Shown here: in pieces, positions 42,191-59,891 of the stretch | How the letters are laid out: the number at the start of each line of letters is the position of its first letter | How positions within the stretch are numbered: the stretch's first letter is position 1 | Origin: Mumia quercus | GTDB lineage: Bacteria; Actinomycetota; Actinomycetes; Propionibacteriales; Nocardioidaceae | Length of the DNA stretch: 64,000 bases | Direction: 5' to 3' | Assembly: GCF_025506335.1 (NCBI RefSeq) | Contig: NZ_JANZYO010000002.1 | Coordinates: forward strand, 234,221-298,220 | Notes under the pieces: model-generated | What the model was told of the DNA's origin: nothing | What the model saw: only the letters and a program-made list of their open reading frames with translations | Database searches by the model: none | Program-made: the position numbers and the translations under genes

Positions 42191-43795
42191 TCAGAGCCCG
42201 TGGCGGCGAAGCCCGTACGTGAAGGCGTCGAGGAGCGCCTCCCACGACGCCTCGACGATGTTGTGCCCGACGCCGACGGTGGTCCAGGTGTCGGTGCCGT
42301 CGGTGGTCCCGATGAGGACCCGGATGCCGGCGTCCGTGCCGCCGGCCTCGTCGAGGATCCGTACGCGGTAGTCGTTGAGCCCGAACGAGGCGACGTCGGG
42401 GAAGGCGCGCTCGATCGCCTGCCGCAAGGCGTGGTCGAGCGCGGAGACAGGGCCGTTGCCCTCCCCCGTCACCACGTACCGCTGCCCCCCGGCCACGATC
42501 TTGACCGTCGCCTCGGAGGGCGCCTCCTCGCCCGCCGCGTGGTGCGACTCGGTGATGACCCGCCACGACTGCACGTCGAAGTACGACGCCCGCTCGCCCT
42601 CGACCATCTCCGCGAGCAGCAGCTCGAAGGACGCGTCGGCCGCCTCGAACGTGTAGCCCGCCTGCTCCCGCTCCTTCACGACCTCGGTCACCTTCGCGAG
42701 CGTGTCCGTGTCGCCGCTGAGGTCGAAGCCCAGCTCCTTGCCCTTGAGCTCGATCGTCGCGCGGCCCGCCATCTCCGAGACGAGCAGCCGCATGTCGTTG
42801 CCGACCAGCTCGGGGTCGATGTGCTGGTAGAGATCGGGGTCGACGCGGATGGCGCTCGCGTGCAGCCCGGCCTTGTGCGCGAAGGCGGAGACACCCGTGT
42901 ACGGCTGGCGCGCCGCCGGCGGATAGTTCGTCACCTCGGAGATCGCGTGGGCGATCCGGCTGGCCTCGCGCAGCGCGCCGGACGGCAGCACCTTCTGGCC
43001 CAGCTTGAGCTCGAGGTTCGCGACGCAGGTCACCAGGTCGGCGTTGCCGGTCCGCTCGCCGTACCCGTTGACGCATCCCTGCAGGTGCGTGGCCCCCTCC
43101 GCAACCGCCGCGAGAGAGTTGGCCACCGCGCACCCGGTGTCGTTGTGCGCGTGGATGCCGAGCCTCGCACCCGTCGTACCGGCGACGTCGGCGACGATCT
43201 CGCCCACCCAGTGCGGCAGCATGCCGCCGTTGGTGTCGCAGAGCACGACGACCTCGGCCCCCGCCTCGGCGGCCGTACGGACCACCTCGAGCGCGTACGC
43301 CCGGTTGCGGCGGTAGCCGTCGAAGAAGTGCTCGCAGTCGAGGAACACCCGCTGCCCGTTCTCACGCAGGTGGGTGACGGTGTCGCGCACCATCGCGAGG
43401 TTCTCCTCGAGCGAGGTCCGCAGCGCCAGCTCGACGTGCCTGTCGTGGCTCTTCGCGACCAGCGTCACCACCGACGCCCCCGACTCGCGCAGCGCAGCGA
43501 CCAGCGGGTCGTCGGCGGCGGCCACGCCTGCCCGCCGCGTCGCCCCGAAGGCGGCGAGCGTCGCGTTCTCCAGCCGCAGCTCCGTACGGGCGCGAGAGAA
43601 GAACTCGGTGTCCTTCGGGTTGGAGCCGGGCCACCCGCCCTCGATGTAGCCGACACCGAGCCTGTCCAGGTGGCGTGCGATGACGAGCTTGTCGGCGACG
43701 GAGAGGTTGAGGCCCTCCTGCTGGGCGCCGTCGCGCAGCGTCGTGTCGTACACGTGGAAGGTGGGGTCGGTCGCGGTCTGCGTCGGCTCGGTCAT
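42191..43795 (-). CDS. cimA: (R)-citramalate synthase
   Basis: CimA condenses pyruvate and acetyl-CoA to citramalate, the threonine-independent entry to isoleucine synthesis. The 534-residue product is a DRE-TIM metallolyase: DTTLRDGAQQEG at the N-terminus, HAHNDTG with metal-binding His residues, NGYGERTGNA, and a C-terminal LeuA-type regulatory domain (about 400-534). The motif order and the extra spacing favour CimA over 2-isopropylmalate or homocitrate synthase. A leader peptide and a terminator lie in the 173-nt upstream region. It may supply isoleucine where threonine deaminase is limiting; leuB in this window can carry out the later step. Confidence 0.92.
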   Translation of the reverse strand: MTEPTQTATDPTFHVYDTTLRDGAQQEGLNLSVADKLVIARHLDRLGVGYIEGGWPGSNPKDTEFFSRARTELRLENATLAAFGATRRAGVAAADDPLVAALRESGASVVTLVAKSHDRHVELALRTSLEENLAMVRDTVTHLRENGQRVFLDCEHFFDGYRRNRAYALEVVRTAAEAGAEVVVLCDTNGGMLPHWVGEIVADVAGTTGARLGIHAHNDTGCAVANSLAAVAEGATHLQGCVNGYGERTGNADLVTCVANLELKLGQKVLPSGALREASRIAHAISEVTNYPPAARQPYTGVSAFAHKAGLHASAIRVDPDLYQHIDPELVGNDMRLLVSEMAGRATIELKGKELGFDLSGDTDTLAKVTEVVKEREQAGYTFEAADASFELLLAEMVEGERASYFDVQSWRVITESHHAAGEEAPSEATVKIVAGGQRYVVTGEGNGPVSALDHALRQAIERAFPDVASFGLNDYRVRILDEAGGTDAGIRVLIGTTDGTDTWTTVGVGHNIVEASWEALLDAFTYGLRRHGL

Positions 43796-43875
43796 GTCAT
43801 CTCCTGCTCGGGGCGCGCGGTCGGCGTCTCCTCCCGAGGGGCCGGCCGCGTCCGCGCGTCATCGGGCCCGCCCAT

Positions 43876-43903
43876 AAAAAATGCCCCTCGGTGTACGAGA
43901 GGC
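43876..43903 (-). terminator. Attenuator terminator of cimA
   Basis: On the minus strand the mRNA forms a stem from GCCTCTCG and CGAGGGGC (43903-43896 with 43890-43883; one G-U pair) with loop TACAC, followed at once by six U (43881-43876). This rho-independent terminator lies between the leader peptide and cimA. A competing pairing is visible upstream: GCGCGTC at the end of the leader peptide matches GACGCGC just before the terminator. Confidence 0.82.
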
Positions 43904-43927
43904 TGCGCGTCGGACCCGGGAGGTGGA

Positions 43928-43969
43928 TCAGACGCGCCGACTAATGACGAGGCAGGTCACGCGAAGCAT
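43928..43969 (-). CDS. Leader peptide of the cimA attenuator
   Basis: A 13-codon open frame reads MLRVTCLVISRRV. Six of its 13 residues are Leu, Val or Ile (L, V, L, V, I, V), as expected of a leader that senses charged branched-chain tRNAs. The ATG at 43969 follows TAGAGT, a -10-like box, by six bases, so the message is probably leaderless and the peptide is the first thing translated. Ribosome stalling on low branched-chain tRNA would favour the antiterminator and allow cimA expression. This control is inferred from layout. Confidence 0.75.
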   Translation of the reverse strand: MLRVTCLVISRRV

Positions 43970-43975
43970 GGGCCC

Positions 43976-43985
43976 ACTCTAGACT
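43976..43985. promoter_or_regulatory. Overlapping divergent -10 boxes
   Basis: The minus -10 (TAGAGT, 43981-43976) and the plus -10 (TAGACT, 43980-43985) share two bases. The first serves the cimA leader, the second the oxidoreductase at 43995, which starts nine bases further on. RNA polymerase cannot occupy both, so the two promoters should compete. Confidence 0.55.
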
Positions 43986-43994
43986 GACGGGACC

Positions 43995-45077
43995 ATGACT
44001 TCCACCGCTGCCCTCGACAACGTGTCCAACCTGACCGTGCGGCTGGCGAGCCGGCCTCAGGGAGAAGCGACGGTCGACAACTTCGCGCTGGCGCGTGAGT
44101 CGATCCCCACGCCCGGCGACAACGAGGTGCTCCTGCGCACGATCTACCTCTCGCTCGACCCCTACATGCGCGGCCGGATGTCCGAGGCGGAGTCGTACGC
44201 CGAGCCCGTCCCGGTCGGCGGGATCATGGAGGGTGGCACGGTCTGCGAGGTGATCGAGTCCCACACCGACATGGTCGAGGTCGGCGACATCGTCCTCGCG
44301 CACACCGGCTGGCAGGAGTACGCCGTCGCGTCCGACAAGGCGGTCCGCACGATCGACAGCACGAGCGCCCCGATCTCTACCGCGCTCGGCGTCCTCGGGA
44401 TGCCCGGTTTCACCGCGTACGCAGGTCTGCTGCAGATCGGCGCCCCTCAGCCGTCGGAGACGGTCGTCGTCGCCGCGGCCGCCGGTCCCGTCGGGTCCGC
44501 CGTCGGCCAGATCGCGCAGCTGAAGGGCGCCCGCGCCGTCGGCATCGCCGGTGGTCCCGAGAAGGTCGCGTACGTCAAGGAGGAGCTGGGCTTCGAGGTC
44601 GCGCTCGACCACCGCGCCCCGGACTTCGCCGACAGCCTCGCGGCGGCGACCCCGGAGGGCATCGACGTCTACTTCGAGAACGTCGGCGGCAAGGTCTTCG
44701 ACGCGGTCCTCCCCCGCATGAACGAGTTCGGACGCATCCCCGTCTGCGGCCTCGTCTCGCAGTACGACACGACGTCGCTTCCGGCGGGGCCCGACCGGGT
44801 CCCGATGCTGATGAGCCGCATCCTGACCAAGAGCCTGACCGTGCGCGGCTTCATCCAGCGGGAGTTCGTCCGCGCCTACTACCGCGACTTCCTGCAGGAC
44901 ATGCGGGGGTGGTTGGCGGCCGGCAAGATCCACTACCGCGAGGACGTGGTGCACGGCCTCGAGAACGCGCCCGAGGCGTTCCTCGGCATGCTGCGCGGCG
45001 AGAACTTCGGCAAGCTCGTCGTCCAGGTGGGCGACGACCCGACGGCCTCTCCCCCGCCCGCGACGGCGGCCTCGTGA
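43995..45077 (+). CDS. NADP-dependent oxidoreductase (MDR superfamily, CurA-like)
   Basis: A 360-residue zinc-independent medium-chain reductase. It has SLDPYMRGRM near residue 52, GMPGFTAYAGLLQIG and the nucleotide-binding AAAAGPVGSAVGQIAQLKG near 160-180, then YFENVGG. This subfamily includes curcumin reductase CurA and leukotriene B4/2-alkenal reductases, which reduce the C=C bond of enones and enals. The substrate is unknown. Its stop overlaps the next gene by 4 nt (GTGA), so the two are co-translated. Confidence 0.9.
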   Translation: MTSTAALDNVSNLTVRLASRPQGEATVDNFALARESIPTPGDNEVLLRTIYLSLDPYMRGRMSEAESYAEPVPVGGIMEGGTVCEVIESHTDMVEVGDIVLAHTGWQEYAVASDKAVRTIDSTSAPISTALGVLGMPGFTAYAGLLQIGAPQPSETVVVAAAAGPVGSAVGQIAQLKGARAVGIAGGPEKVAYVKEELGFEVALDHRAPDFADSLAAATPEGIDVYFENVGGKVFDAVLPRMNEFGRIPVCGLVSQYDTTSLPAGPDRVPMLMSRILTKSLTVRGFIQREFVRAYYRDFLQDMRGWLAAGKIHYREDVVHGLENAPEAFLGMLRGENFGKLVVQVGDDPTASPPPATAAS

Positions 45078-45763
45078 CCCGACCTGTCCCCGTCCCCGAG
45101 GTGGTGACCGCGCTCTACGTCGTTCTCACGGACGAGCCGCTGGACACCGACCTCGCCGCACCTCCCGTCCCGCCGCCGAGCCTGCTGCTCGCGCGCGGCT
45201 CCAGCCCGAAGGCCGTCCGGTTCGCCGAGTCGCTCCCGTACGCGACCGCAGTCACAGCCGACTCGTCGCCGAGCGAGGCGGTCGAGACACAGCGGCGTAC
45301 GCAGGCGGCGGCGCGCGCCCTCGCGGCGGAGCACGTCGGCGTCGTCGTCGATGCCGCGGTGCCCCGCCTGCTCACGTCCCCGTCGCACCCTGACCTCGTC
45401 CGCGCGAGCGACTGGTTCGTCCTGGAGCACCCGAGCGACGACGTGTCCACCACGCACGGGCTGACGCGGTTCGGGCTGCCGGAGCTCGTGGTCACCGACG
45501 TCGAGGACGGGCGCCTGCCGATGTACGACGCGGTGCTCACCGGTGTCGCGCAACGCATCGTCGAGGAGTGGCCCGACAACGACCCCGTCGGGCCGGCCAC
45601 GATCACGTTGCGCGACGTCGCGCGCGGATACGGCGACGCGTCCGCCGGCGGGGACGACCCGACGCTGGCGCGCAGCGTCGACGTCACCCTGACGTACGAC
45701 GCCGAGGACGAGCGGATCGTCGTGACGCTGCACGACGATCCCGCCGTCGCCCTCTTCGCCTGA
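45074..45763 (+). CDS. Hypothetical protein coupled to the oxidoreductase
   Basis: The 229-residue product shows no recognised domain. It has no signal peptide or membrane helix and alternates hydrophobic strands with acidic loops. Internal features are LLLARGSSPKAVRFAESLPYA and WFVLEHPSDD. Good codon use and the GTGA overlap with the gene before support it as real. Function unknown. Confidence 0.6.
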   Translation: MTRPVPVPEVVTALYVVLTDEPLDTDLAAPPVPPPSLLLARGSSPKAVRFAESLPYATAVTADSSPSEAVETQRRTQAAARALAAEHVGVVVDAAVPRLLTSPSHPDLVRASDWFVLEHPSDDVSTTHGLTRFGLPELVVTDVEDGRLPMYDAVLTGVAQRIVEEWPDNDPVGPATITLRDVARGYGDASAGGDDPTLARSVDVTLTYDAEDERIVVTLHDDPAVALFA

Positions 45764-45774
45764 GCCTCTCCGGG

Positions 45775-46875
45775 TCAGGCGACGCGGTGCATCCACCCGT
45801 GCGAGTCGGGCGTACGACCGTACTGCAGGTCGATGAGCGCCTCGCGGATCGCCATGGTGACCTTGCCGCCGTCGCCGTCGCTGCTGACGACCTCGCCGCC
45901 GTCCCAGCGCAGGGAGCCGACGGGCGTCACGACCGCCGCGGTGCCGCAGGCGAACACCTCGGTGACCCGGCCGCTGGTGACACCGTCGATCCACTCGTCG
46001 ATGCTGAAGCGGCGCTGCTCGACCGTGTAGCCGAGGTCGGTCGCGATCGTGCCGAGCGCGTCGCGGGTGATGCCCTCGAGGATCGAGTCGCTCGCCGGCG
46101 TGACGATGGTGCCGTCGTCGTGGACGAAGTAGAGGTTCATCCCGCCGAGCTCTTCGATGTAGGTGTGCTGCTCGGAGTCGAGGAAGACGACCTGCTCGCA
46201 CCCGTGCTCGGCGGCGATCTGCTGCGGGAGGAGGCTCGAGGCGTAGTTGCCGCCGCACTTCGCGGCGCCGGTGCCTCCCGCGCCGGCACGGGCGTACTCG
46301 CGCGACAGCCAGATGTTGACCGGCTTCACGCCGCCGGAGAAGTACGCGCCGGCGGGCGACGCGATCACGCAGTACGTGACGTGCTTGCTCGGCCTGACAC
46401 CGAGGAACGCCTCGGAGGCGAACATGAACGGCCGCAGGTACAGGCTGGTCTCACCGCCGGTCGGGACCCATGCCCGGTCGGTCTGGACGAGGGCGTCGAT
46501 CGACCCGATGAACCAGTCGGTCGGGAGCTCGGGAAGCGCCAGGCGCTGGGCGGACCGCGCGAACCGCTCGGCGTTCGCCTCCGGACGGAACGTCCAGATC
46601 GAGCCGTCGGCGTGCGCGTAGGCCTTGAGGCCCTCGAAGATCTCCTGCGCGTAGTGCAGGACAGCGGTCGCCGGGTCGAGCTGGAGCGGGCCGTACTGCT
46701 TGACCGTGGGCGCGGTCCATCCGGTCTGCGGCGTCCACTCGGCGGTGAACATGTGGTCGGTGAAGTGCACCCCGAACCCGGGGTTGGCGAGGATCTCGGC
46801 GCGACGCTGCTCGGGCACGGGCGAGGGCGTCGGCTCCAGCGCGTACGAGAACGTGGCGTCGGCGGAGGTGGTCAT
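45775..46875 (-). CDS. ilvE: Branched-chain amino acid aminotransferase
   Basis: IlvE makes the last step of Leu, Ile and Val synthesis by transferring an amino group from glutamate. The 366-residue fold-type IV enzyme has the PLP Lys in GAAKCGGNYASSLLPQ, EELGGMNLYFV and FACGTAAVVTPVG, all class IV signatures. The ATG at 46875 (MTTSADATF) gives the normal length. It follows leuB by 49 nt on the same strand and probably shares its transcript. Confidence 0.95.
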   Translation of the reverse strand: MTTSADATFSYALEPTPSPVPEQRRAEILANPGFGVHFTDHMFTAEWTPQTGWTAPTVKQYGPLQLDPATAVLHYAQEIFEGLKAYAHADGSIWTFRPEANAERFARSAQRLALPELPTDWFIGSIDALVQTDRAWVPTGGETSLYLRPFMFASEAFLGVRPSKHVTYCVIASPAGAYFSGGVKPVNIWLSREYARAGAGGTGAAKCGGNYASSLLPQQIAAEHGCEQVVFLDSEQHTYIEELGGMNLYFVHDDGTIVTPASDSILEGITRDALGTIATDLGYTVEQRRFSIDEWIDGVTSGRVTEVFACGTAAVVTPVGSLRWDGGEVVSSDGDGGKVTMAIREALIDLQYGRTPDSHGWMHRVA

Positions 46876-59712: not shown

Positions 59713-59798
59713 CGCTGTCCCTTCATGCCGACCGGCCGGCGCCGGTAGATCGGGTCGGGCGGGTGCCCTTCGTGCGGGGTGTCCTGATTCGTGACAAC

Positions 59799-59834
59799 AA
59801 AAAACCCCTCGGCCCGCCTGGGCATTCGAGGGGT
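59799..59834 (-). terminator. Attenuator terminator of ilvBHC
   Basis: On the minus strand ACCCCTCG (59834-59827) pairs with CGAGGGGT (59811-59804) over eight bases with an inner small hairpin in the 15-nt loop, followed by six U (59804-59799). It is a rho-independent terminator between leader peptide and ilvB. The stem core resembles that of cimA's terminator (CCTCTCG/CGAGGGG), pointing to a shared design. Confidence 0.87.
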
Positions 59835-59861
59835 GACGCGGGACCGGTGACCGGTCGCGCG

Positions 59862-59891
59862 TCAGTGACGTACGAGAAGGAGGTTGCGCAC
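59862..59891 (-). CDS. Leader peptide of the ilvB attenuator
   Basis: A 9-codon frame, GTG to TGA, reads MRNLLLVRH: three consecutive Leu codons and a Val codon. Its start lies six bases after the -10 CACTCT, so it is probably translated from a leaderless RNA. This matches the Leu/Val control expected for acetolactate synthase: scarce charged Leu- or Val-tRNA would stall the ribosome and prevent the terminator at 59799-59834. Confidence 0.82.

Follow-up and report, generated by a model that had tools for sequence, protein, structure and literature searches.

A probable, chiefly isoleucine-reading attenuator before actinobacterial cimA, with a hairpin abutting its terminator

Why should the gene for citramalate synthase be preceded by a very short reading frame in which codons for branched-chain amino acids recur, and by two hairpins set end to end? 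The question arises on the minus strand of a 64-kb stretch of the Mumia quercus genome (the window), where sequence and relatives point to the open reading frame MLRVTCLVISRRV* (43928..43969) as a candidate leaderless leader peptide. Its codons, from 43969 to 43928, are ATG CTT CGC GTG ACC TGC CTC GTC ATT AGT CGG CGC GTC TGA, and direct reading of the strand bears out the first-pass annotation, which had counted six Leu, Val or Ile residues among the 13. Further along the same strand lie a hairpin (P1), an intrinsic terminator (T), the sequence AGGAG (43801..43805), a candidate ribosome binding site, and cimA itself (42191..43795, 534 amino acids; a TIGR00977 equivalog match at 636.2 bits, where the cut-off is 450), the gene that we propose to be controlled; leuB and ilvE are its neighbours, and ilvB also falls within the window. 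We read the locus as ribosome-mediated transcription attenuation of cimA with P1 as the switch hairpin, and give this reading, which covers both the existence of regulation and its direction, a probability of roughly 0.7 on the strength of sequence analysis.

The leader and hairpins at the Mumia quercus locus

Six nucleotides 5' of the leader ATG stands a -10-like box, TAGAGT (43976..43981, minus strand), recognized from the sequence and from congeners: TAGAGT, TAAGGT or TAGGAT occurs 6-7 nt 5' of the leader start in the M. quercus genome and five congeners. Across the 83 leaders described below, the distance from such a box to the start codon is 6-7 nt in 56 and 10 nt in 20, counts that lean upward since the choice of start codon favoured reading frames with such a box. 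A longer leader frame is excluded at the window locus because an in-frame TAG lies inside the box. Translation of the cimA leader thus probably starts at the RNA 5' end or close to it, as first proposed, and the spacing of the box is consistent with this; the accompanying claim that such translation is unusual was mistaken, since a survey of S. lividans, in the portion drawn on here, reports 17% of transcripts to be leaderless and the IlvL and LeuL leaders among them (PMC8079986). Leaderless leader peptides are ordinary in actinobacteria, and the surprising part of the locus is the geometry of its two hairpins. On the other side of the promoter, 25 nt separate the leader ATG (43969) from the start of a divergent curcumin-reductase-like gene (43995, NF058644), and the divergent -10 boxes overlap within 43976-43985, with TAGAGT for the cimA leader on the minus strand and TAGACT for the curcumin-reductase-like gene on the plus strand having two bases in common.

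P1 (GCGCGUCUGAUCC / GGGUCCGACGCGC; 43905..43937, minus strand), identified by folding, comparison, covariation and the masking computation described below, is proposed as a ribosome-position-sensitive, steric antiterminator. Its 5' arm starts within the last codons of the leader, and GCGCGTC, read from 43937, is matched by GACGCGC, which runs to 43905. One nucleotide later begins T (43876..43903, minus strand; folding and covariation), which in RNA is GCCUCUCG uacac CGAGGGGC followed by A UUUUUU, and in DNA GCCTCTCG-tacac-CGAGGGGC at 43903-43883 with an A and six T down to 43876. The hairpin with six U that had been described before cimA is therefore there, ending at 43876, and what had been called a competing pairing of GCGCGTC with GACGCGC turns out to be P1 itself, which takes no bases of T and ends 1 nt before it. 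The leader stretch folds at -38.6 kcal/mol (z = -3.70, equalled in 0 of 200 shuffles), and the unconstrained fold sets P1 and T side by side. A scan of 42500-46500 and of six relatives against Rfam returned no family at its gathering score, only sub-threshold matches, of which anti-hemB over the cimA leader stretch (19.4 bits against 49.5 needed) and Atu_C8 over the leader of one relative, L037 (26 bits against 50), were rejected.

Could such an arrangement arise by chance? We scanned both strands of the whole 64-kb window for a short open reading frame with a hairpin no more than 5 nt from a terminator, and only two places matched, the cimA leader and a leader before ilvB, so we reject a chance origin. 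Among 600 windows sampled at random from the fetched loci, a set that itself contains leaders, there were 26 matches; 25 are, by their peptides, leaders identified in the comparisons below or shortened forms of them, and the last is a one-residue peptide in the locus L137. A non-regulatory origin, in which a constitutive terminator of some upstream transcript happens to follow a chance short reading frame, would account for T, for which a terminator alone suffices. It leaves aside that conservation across families extends to the codons, P1, the -10 box and the spacing, and there is no close upstream transcript to terminate, because the adjacent gene is divergent and ilvE, the next identified gene upstream on the same strand, ends ~1.8 kb away. 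We regard this origin as highly improbable.

Conservation and reach before cimA

Is the arrangement peculiar to one genome? We compared 86 cimA upstream regions, taken from the M. quercus genome, five congeners and the best 80 of 587 relatives from named actinobacterial records, and found leader, P1 and T in 83, the regions without a leader being L029, L032 and L049. The first detection favoured Ile codons and a -10 box in choosing the reading frame; rerun with no preference for Ile, it again gave 83/86. The first-pass annotation had named a lack of conservation of codons and hairpin in relatives as what would count against it, and its proposal came through this comparison intact. Among the 83 leaders we count 64 different peptides and 82 different sequences from leader to T; 24 come from records with Streptomyces titles and resemble one another closely, a kinship that inflates P values, and two (L046 and L079) have uncertain start codons. 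In Streptomyces-type loci among L054-L084, the interior of P1 is ~50 nt long and much alike between species.

The codons of the window leader are CTC-GTC-ATT, or Leu-Val-Ile, at -14, -11 and -8 from P1, and with these three positions occupied by three different amino acids a strictly Ile-only reading of this leader was rejected. The congeners have LFI, VII, VVI, VII and LII where the window leader has LVI, and outside the genus the run is mostly III, II or LII. Every one of the 83 leaders has at least one Ile codon and 78 have at least two, the window leader having a single one, at -8. The mixture of Leu, Val and Ile codons originally noted thus characterizes the genus of the window, whereas its relatives chiefly carry codons for Ile, the product of the CimA pathway. 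The window leader probably exemplifies an attenuator of cimA that is widespread and reads chiefly isoleucine. Rare codons are a known theme of attenuator leaders; here the rare AUU accounts for 111 of 183 Ile codons in the leaders (L001, L005-L089) against 21 of 1316 in the cimA coding sequence (first 500 codons, L005-L084), a preference that fits a codon-sensing role, and GUA appears in nearly all of the ilvB leaders discussed below.

Both hairpins have changed in a compensatory manner. In 39 aligned sequences, 96.6% of cells are paired and 7 of 15 pairs have changed on both sides; pair 26-53 occurs as UA, CG, AU and UG (6 sequences not paired) and pair 28-51 as GC, CG and AU (8 not paired), while the outer four pairs of P1 (GCGC) are invariant and hence uninformative on pairing. 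The covariation score is 0.281, against 0.150 +/- 0.011 in shuffled alignments (0 of 500 as high) and at most 0.102 in slid controls. Four of five covariation measures exceed all 500 shuffles; the fifth, the number of further pair types, is not above its control in these sequences (15 against 16.1 shuffled, with 452 of 500 as high).

How far does the element extend? A model, R1, trained on 39 short-P1 sequences that include no Streptomyces, recovers at E<1e-6 44 of 47 loci on which it was not trained, many of them near relatives of training sequences, and every one of the 26 long-P1 loci is among those recovered; the three not recovered are the loci without a leader. In the M. quercus genome it finds at E<=1 only the cimA leader and the ilvB leader, among the 150 scored of 14,382 first-look candidates. 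In a class sample of 296 genomes, R1 finds a match at E<=0.01 in 210, cimA is present at E<=1e-120 in 234, and both occur in 195, where a match anywhere in the genome is counted and need not be a cimA leader; among the 150 matches listed, 94 are in genomes with a listed cimA, and 90 of these 94 lie on the strand of the cimA match, 29-234 nt ahead of it. Of the 39 genomes with cimA and no R1 match, 25 belong to one family and have small genomes (1.2-2.2 Mb). We inspected ten R1-negative cimA upstream regions: in three (L180, L181, L186) cimA lies, by eye, at or within ~60 nt of the end of an ilvE-like frame, and in two (L176, L178) a TAGACT box stands 7 nt from the start of cimA itself, as if cimA had become leaderless there once the switch was lost. 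These five regions suggest loss or replacement of the switch.

Hairpin geometry and the position of the ribosome

The spacing of the two hairpins is strikingly regular. Extended as far as its pairing goes, T starts 0 nt after P1 in 57 leaders, 1 nt in 24, 2 nt in one and 3 nt in one (n=83), which makes the junction flush (0-1 nt) in 81/83 although P1 spans anything between 23 and 77 nt; nearness as such is in part a consequence of the search for P1, which was limited to ends 1-5 nt before the trimmed T, but neither the fit to 0-1 nt nor the lack of overlap upon extension is a product of the detector. Extended T reaches into P1 in 0/83.

This geometry bears on whether the leaders attenuate in the classical manner, with an overlapping antiterminator that has gone unrecognized, in which some upstream stretch would pair with one arm of T while the ribosome is stalled. 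Trp-type attenuators work by an overlapping antiterminator. The excerpted text of Seliverstov 2005 (PMC1262725) moreover calls Streptomyces leuS leaders classical. Masking, folding of truncated transcripts, a helix search and outward extension of P1, all directed at secondary-structure helices, did not find such an element. P1 can be extended outward by 1-2 pairs in only 4 of the 83 leaders and has no outward extension in 79; the longest upstream helix with the 5' arm of T averages 4.07 bp against 4.60 for shuffled arms, and that with the 3' arm 5.71 against 5.85; and in transcripts ending before the 3' arm of T, pairing of the 5' arm averages 0.23 with the ribosome stalled at Ile and 0.44 with it at the stop codon, the reverse of what an overlapping model needs. 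In the 83 leaders, extension and helix search thus revealed no antiterminator that excludes the terminator by shared bases, and we consider the classical explanation unlikely.

What, then, would the ribosome change? We masked the RNA that it would cover, assuming that its leading edge reaches 12 nt beyond the first base of the codon in the A site. When that codon is the first Ile codon, the five initial pairs of P1 keep a probability above 0.5 in 80/83 leaders; when it is the stop codon, they do so in 1/83. A second measure, the mean over all P1 pairs (above 0.4) at fixed distances whatever the codon, with edges from +10 to +15, has P1 kept in 81-83 of the 83 leaders at -14, in 30-83 at -11, in 1-70 at -8 and in 0-1 at the stop codon; for an A site at -8, the number is 29/83 at an edge of +12 and lower at larger edges. 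According to these computations, a ribosome standing at the stop codon blocks P1, whereas an early stall mostly leaves it able to form. The window leader is one of three exceptions, because its only Ile codon is at -8: a ribosome reading that codon abolishes the five initial P1 pairs (0.0). As a mean over all pairs at an edge of +12, P1 of the window leader stands at 0.92 with the ribosome at Leu (-14), 0.77 at Val (-11), 0.53 at Ile (-8) and 0 at the stop codon; as the contrast is weaker at Ile, sensing in this leader would have to rely more on Leu and Val.

Equilibrium folding predicts T in 82/83 leaders with the ribosome in either place, and therefore base pairing alone gives no switch. As P1 forms upon an early stall and not when the ribosome finishes, the logic of end-product control would make it the antiterminator. 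We propose that the probably leaderless leader (thirteen codons in M. quercus) is translated while P1 and T are being transcribed. With charged tRNA ample (Ile in the family at large; Leu, Val and Ile in M. quercus), the ribosome would reach the stop codon and cover the 5' arm of P1, T would form, and transcription would stop before cimA. With charged tRNA short, the ribosome would stall at the codons 14-8 nt before P1 and leave P1 free to fold against T and keep it from zipping to its base in the exit channel of RNA polymerase; T being hindered, polymerase would read through into cimA. Since termination requires the hairpin to close down to its base within that channel, a rigid, GCGC-clamped helix abutting the base of T should hinder it. 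For this steric step, in which P1 would prevent T merely by abutting it, we put the odds at about even.

P1 might instead act as a pause hairpin, making RNA polymerase wait for the ribosome as the trp 1:2 hairpin does, with T modulated by coupling or by factors such as Rho or NusG and not by P1. P1 is GC-rich and is made first, and in the masking computation it is opened by the advancing ribosome; a role in pausing nevertheless leaves unexplained both the flush fit of 0-1 nt in 81/83 leaders despite the varying span of P1 and how starvation would raise readthrough, and we think it improbable, somewhat more so than the classical explanation.

Codon exchange and relation to known systems

The window itself holds a second copy of the design, in the leader VRNLLLVRH* before ilvB (59805..59891, minus strand), located by an R1 match (59796-59876, 23 bits) and by the scan for leader-hairpin arrangements, with P1 again flush against T. 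Elsewhere, 16 loci fetched from 60 listed R1 matches that were not placed next to cimA proved to precede ilvB in four cases (L100, L101, L105, L109), an isopropylmalate-synthase-like gene in one, leuS-like genes in three and cimA after all in eight, gene names in L100-L115 being assigned by eye from the translation and ilvB of G057, G015 and G028 confirmed by search. The leader before the isopropylmalate-synthase-like gene is MTNLLLT* (L102), and those before the leuS-like genes are MRRTLLLT*, MRSALLLT* and MRRNLLLT* (L103, L104, L106), all ~290-380 nt into the oriented locus. In the M. quercus genome, a Leu-run reading frame, MYIARLLLRCRGEGSH*, stands at 616-666 of the locus L002 before a gene that by eye is leuA-like; a terminator was not seen by eye there, and the arrangement is similar to the published LEU element.

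A detector blind to codons found this chassis upstream of 29/30 ilvB and 10/30 leuS loci in the class sample, where the sets are the best-scoring 30 of 55 and 30 of 59 genomes with a match among 60 sampled, three leuS upstream regions are shortened by contig ends, and the 29 ilvB detections keep three that have no run of branched-chain codons and look wrong (L119, L130, L139) and one with a perhaps misplaced P1 (L117). The same detector found no chassis before leuS of the M. quercus genome. On average, cimA leaders carry 2.2 Ile, 0.47 Leu and 0.34 Val codons before P1, ilvB leaders 0.52, 1.45 and 1.41, and leuS leaders 0.2, 2.8 and 0.5, and at least two Ile codons precede P1 in 78/83 cimA leaders, 0/29 ilvB leaders and 0/10 leuS leaders (Fisher P 9e-27, overstated since the sequences are related). 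The codons are thus exchanged on one chassis, with Ile before cimA, Leu and Val before ilvB and Leu before leuS; in this chassis the codons lie no more than 20 nt ahead of a GC-rich P1 that adjoins T. Two ilvB loci (L135 and L138) encode exactly MRTRILVLGKRVG, the IlvL peptide of S. lividans, which is reported as leaderless in the portion of the survey drawn on here (PMC8079986). Tentatively, and with somewhat less confidence than in the steric step itself, we suggest that actinobacteria possess a single codon-swappable chassis, in which a GC-clamped hairpin that takes no bases of T sits flush against the terminator and blocks it sterically, and which is retuned by a few codons to Ile for cimA, Leu and Val for ilvB, and Leu for leuS and some leuA genes.

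Conservation of leader, P1 and T, together with the match of codons to gene, speaks for the leader-peptide attenuator of cimA that the first-pass annotation had proposed, and its remark that such control is little described agrees with our search of the open-licence literature, which found no report of cimA attenuation and no paper on antitermination by an abutting hairpin. The accessible text of Seliverstov 2005 predicts ilvB, leuS, leuA and trp leaders in actinobacteria with no mention of cimA, and states that codon changes in the S. coelicolor ilvB leader were, contrary to expectation, without effect on regulation (PMC1262725); that of the S. lividans survey lists eight leaders, with cimA and citramalate absent (PMC8079986). 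For M. tuberculosis ilvB1, the part of a 2026 study available to us describes how changing LVVI to AAAA abolished induction by an inhibitor of IlvB1, and its authors put forward the same logic for the ribosome (PMC13236596).

The citramalate route to isoleucine would thus have its first step under a widespread, ribosome-read RNA switch for which we found no description. The comparison also exposes a common anatomy under the ilvB and leuS leaders of actinobacteria, where the S. coelicolor ilvB mutants have been reported not to fit textbook attenuation. If P1 does act by abutting T and not by shared bases, it would be a second way to build an antiterminator, reprogrammable by codon change.

How does the element compare with known attenuators? 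With the trp-type attenuators of enterobacteria it has in common the regulatory codons, the hairpin dependent on ribosome position and the terminator before the gene, but P1 and T of cimA share no bases. The LEU element of actinobacterial leuA likewise has a branched-chain leader; the leuA leader has, in the portion of the S. lividans survey drawn on here, no typical terminator (PMC8079986), whereas the cimA leaders have one, and its position between leader and Shine-Dalgarno sequence, the latter ~70 nt beyond the U-tract, argues against a LEU-type pseudoknot between a Leu run in the leader and the Shine-Dalgarno sequence. Closer are the Streptomyces leuS leaders (LeuL2 of S. lividans; Fig. 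4 in the excerpted Seliverstov 2005), whose chassis is the one found here in 10/30 leuS loci; they differ in their Leu codons and in serving an aminoacyl-tRNA synthetase gene. Closest in anatomy are the actinobacterial ilvB (ilvBNC/ilvBHC) attenuators, exemplified by IlvL (MRTRILVLGKRVG) of S. lividans and the LVVI-encoding uORF of M. tuberculosis ilvB1, which have a similarly short leader with branched-chain codons before a GC-rich hairpin that adjoins a terminator. Their leaders are rich in Leu and Val, with GUA, whereas those described here chiefly encode Ile, by AUU or AUC, and the gene that they precede is cimA.
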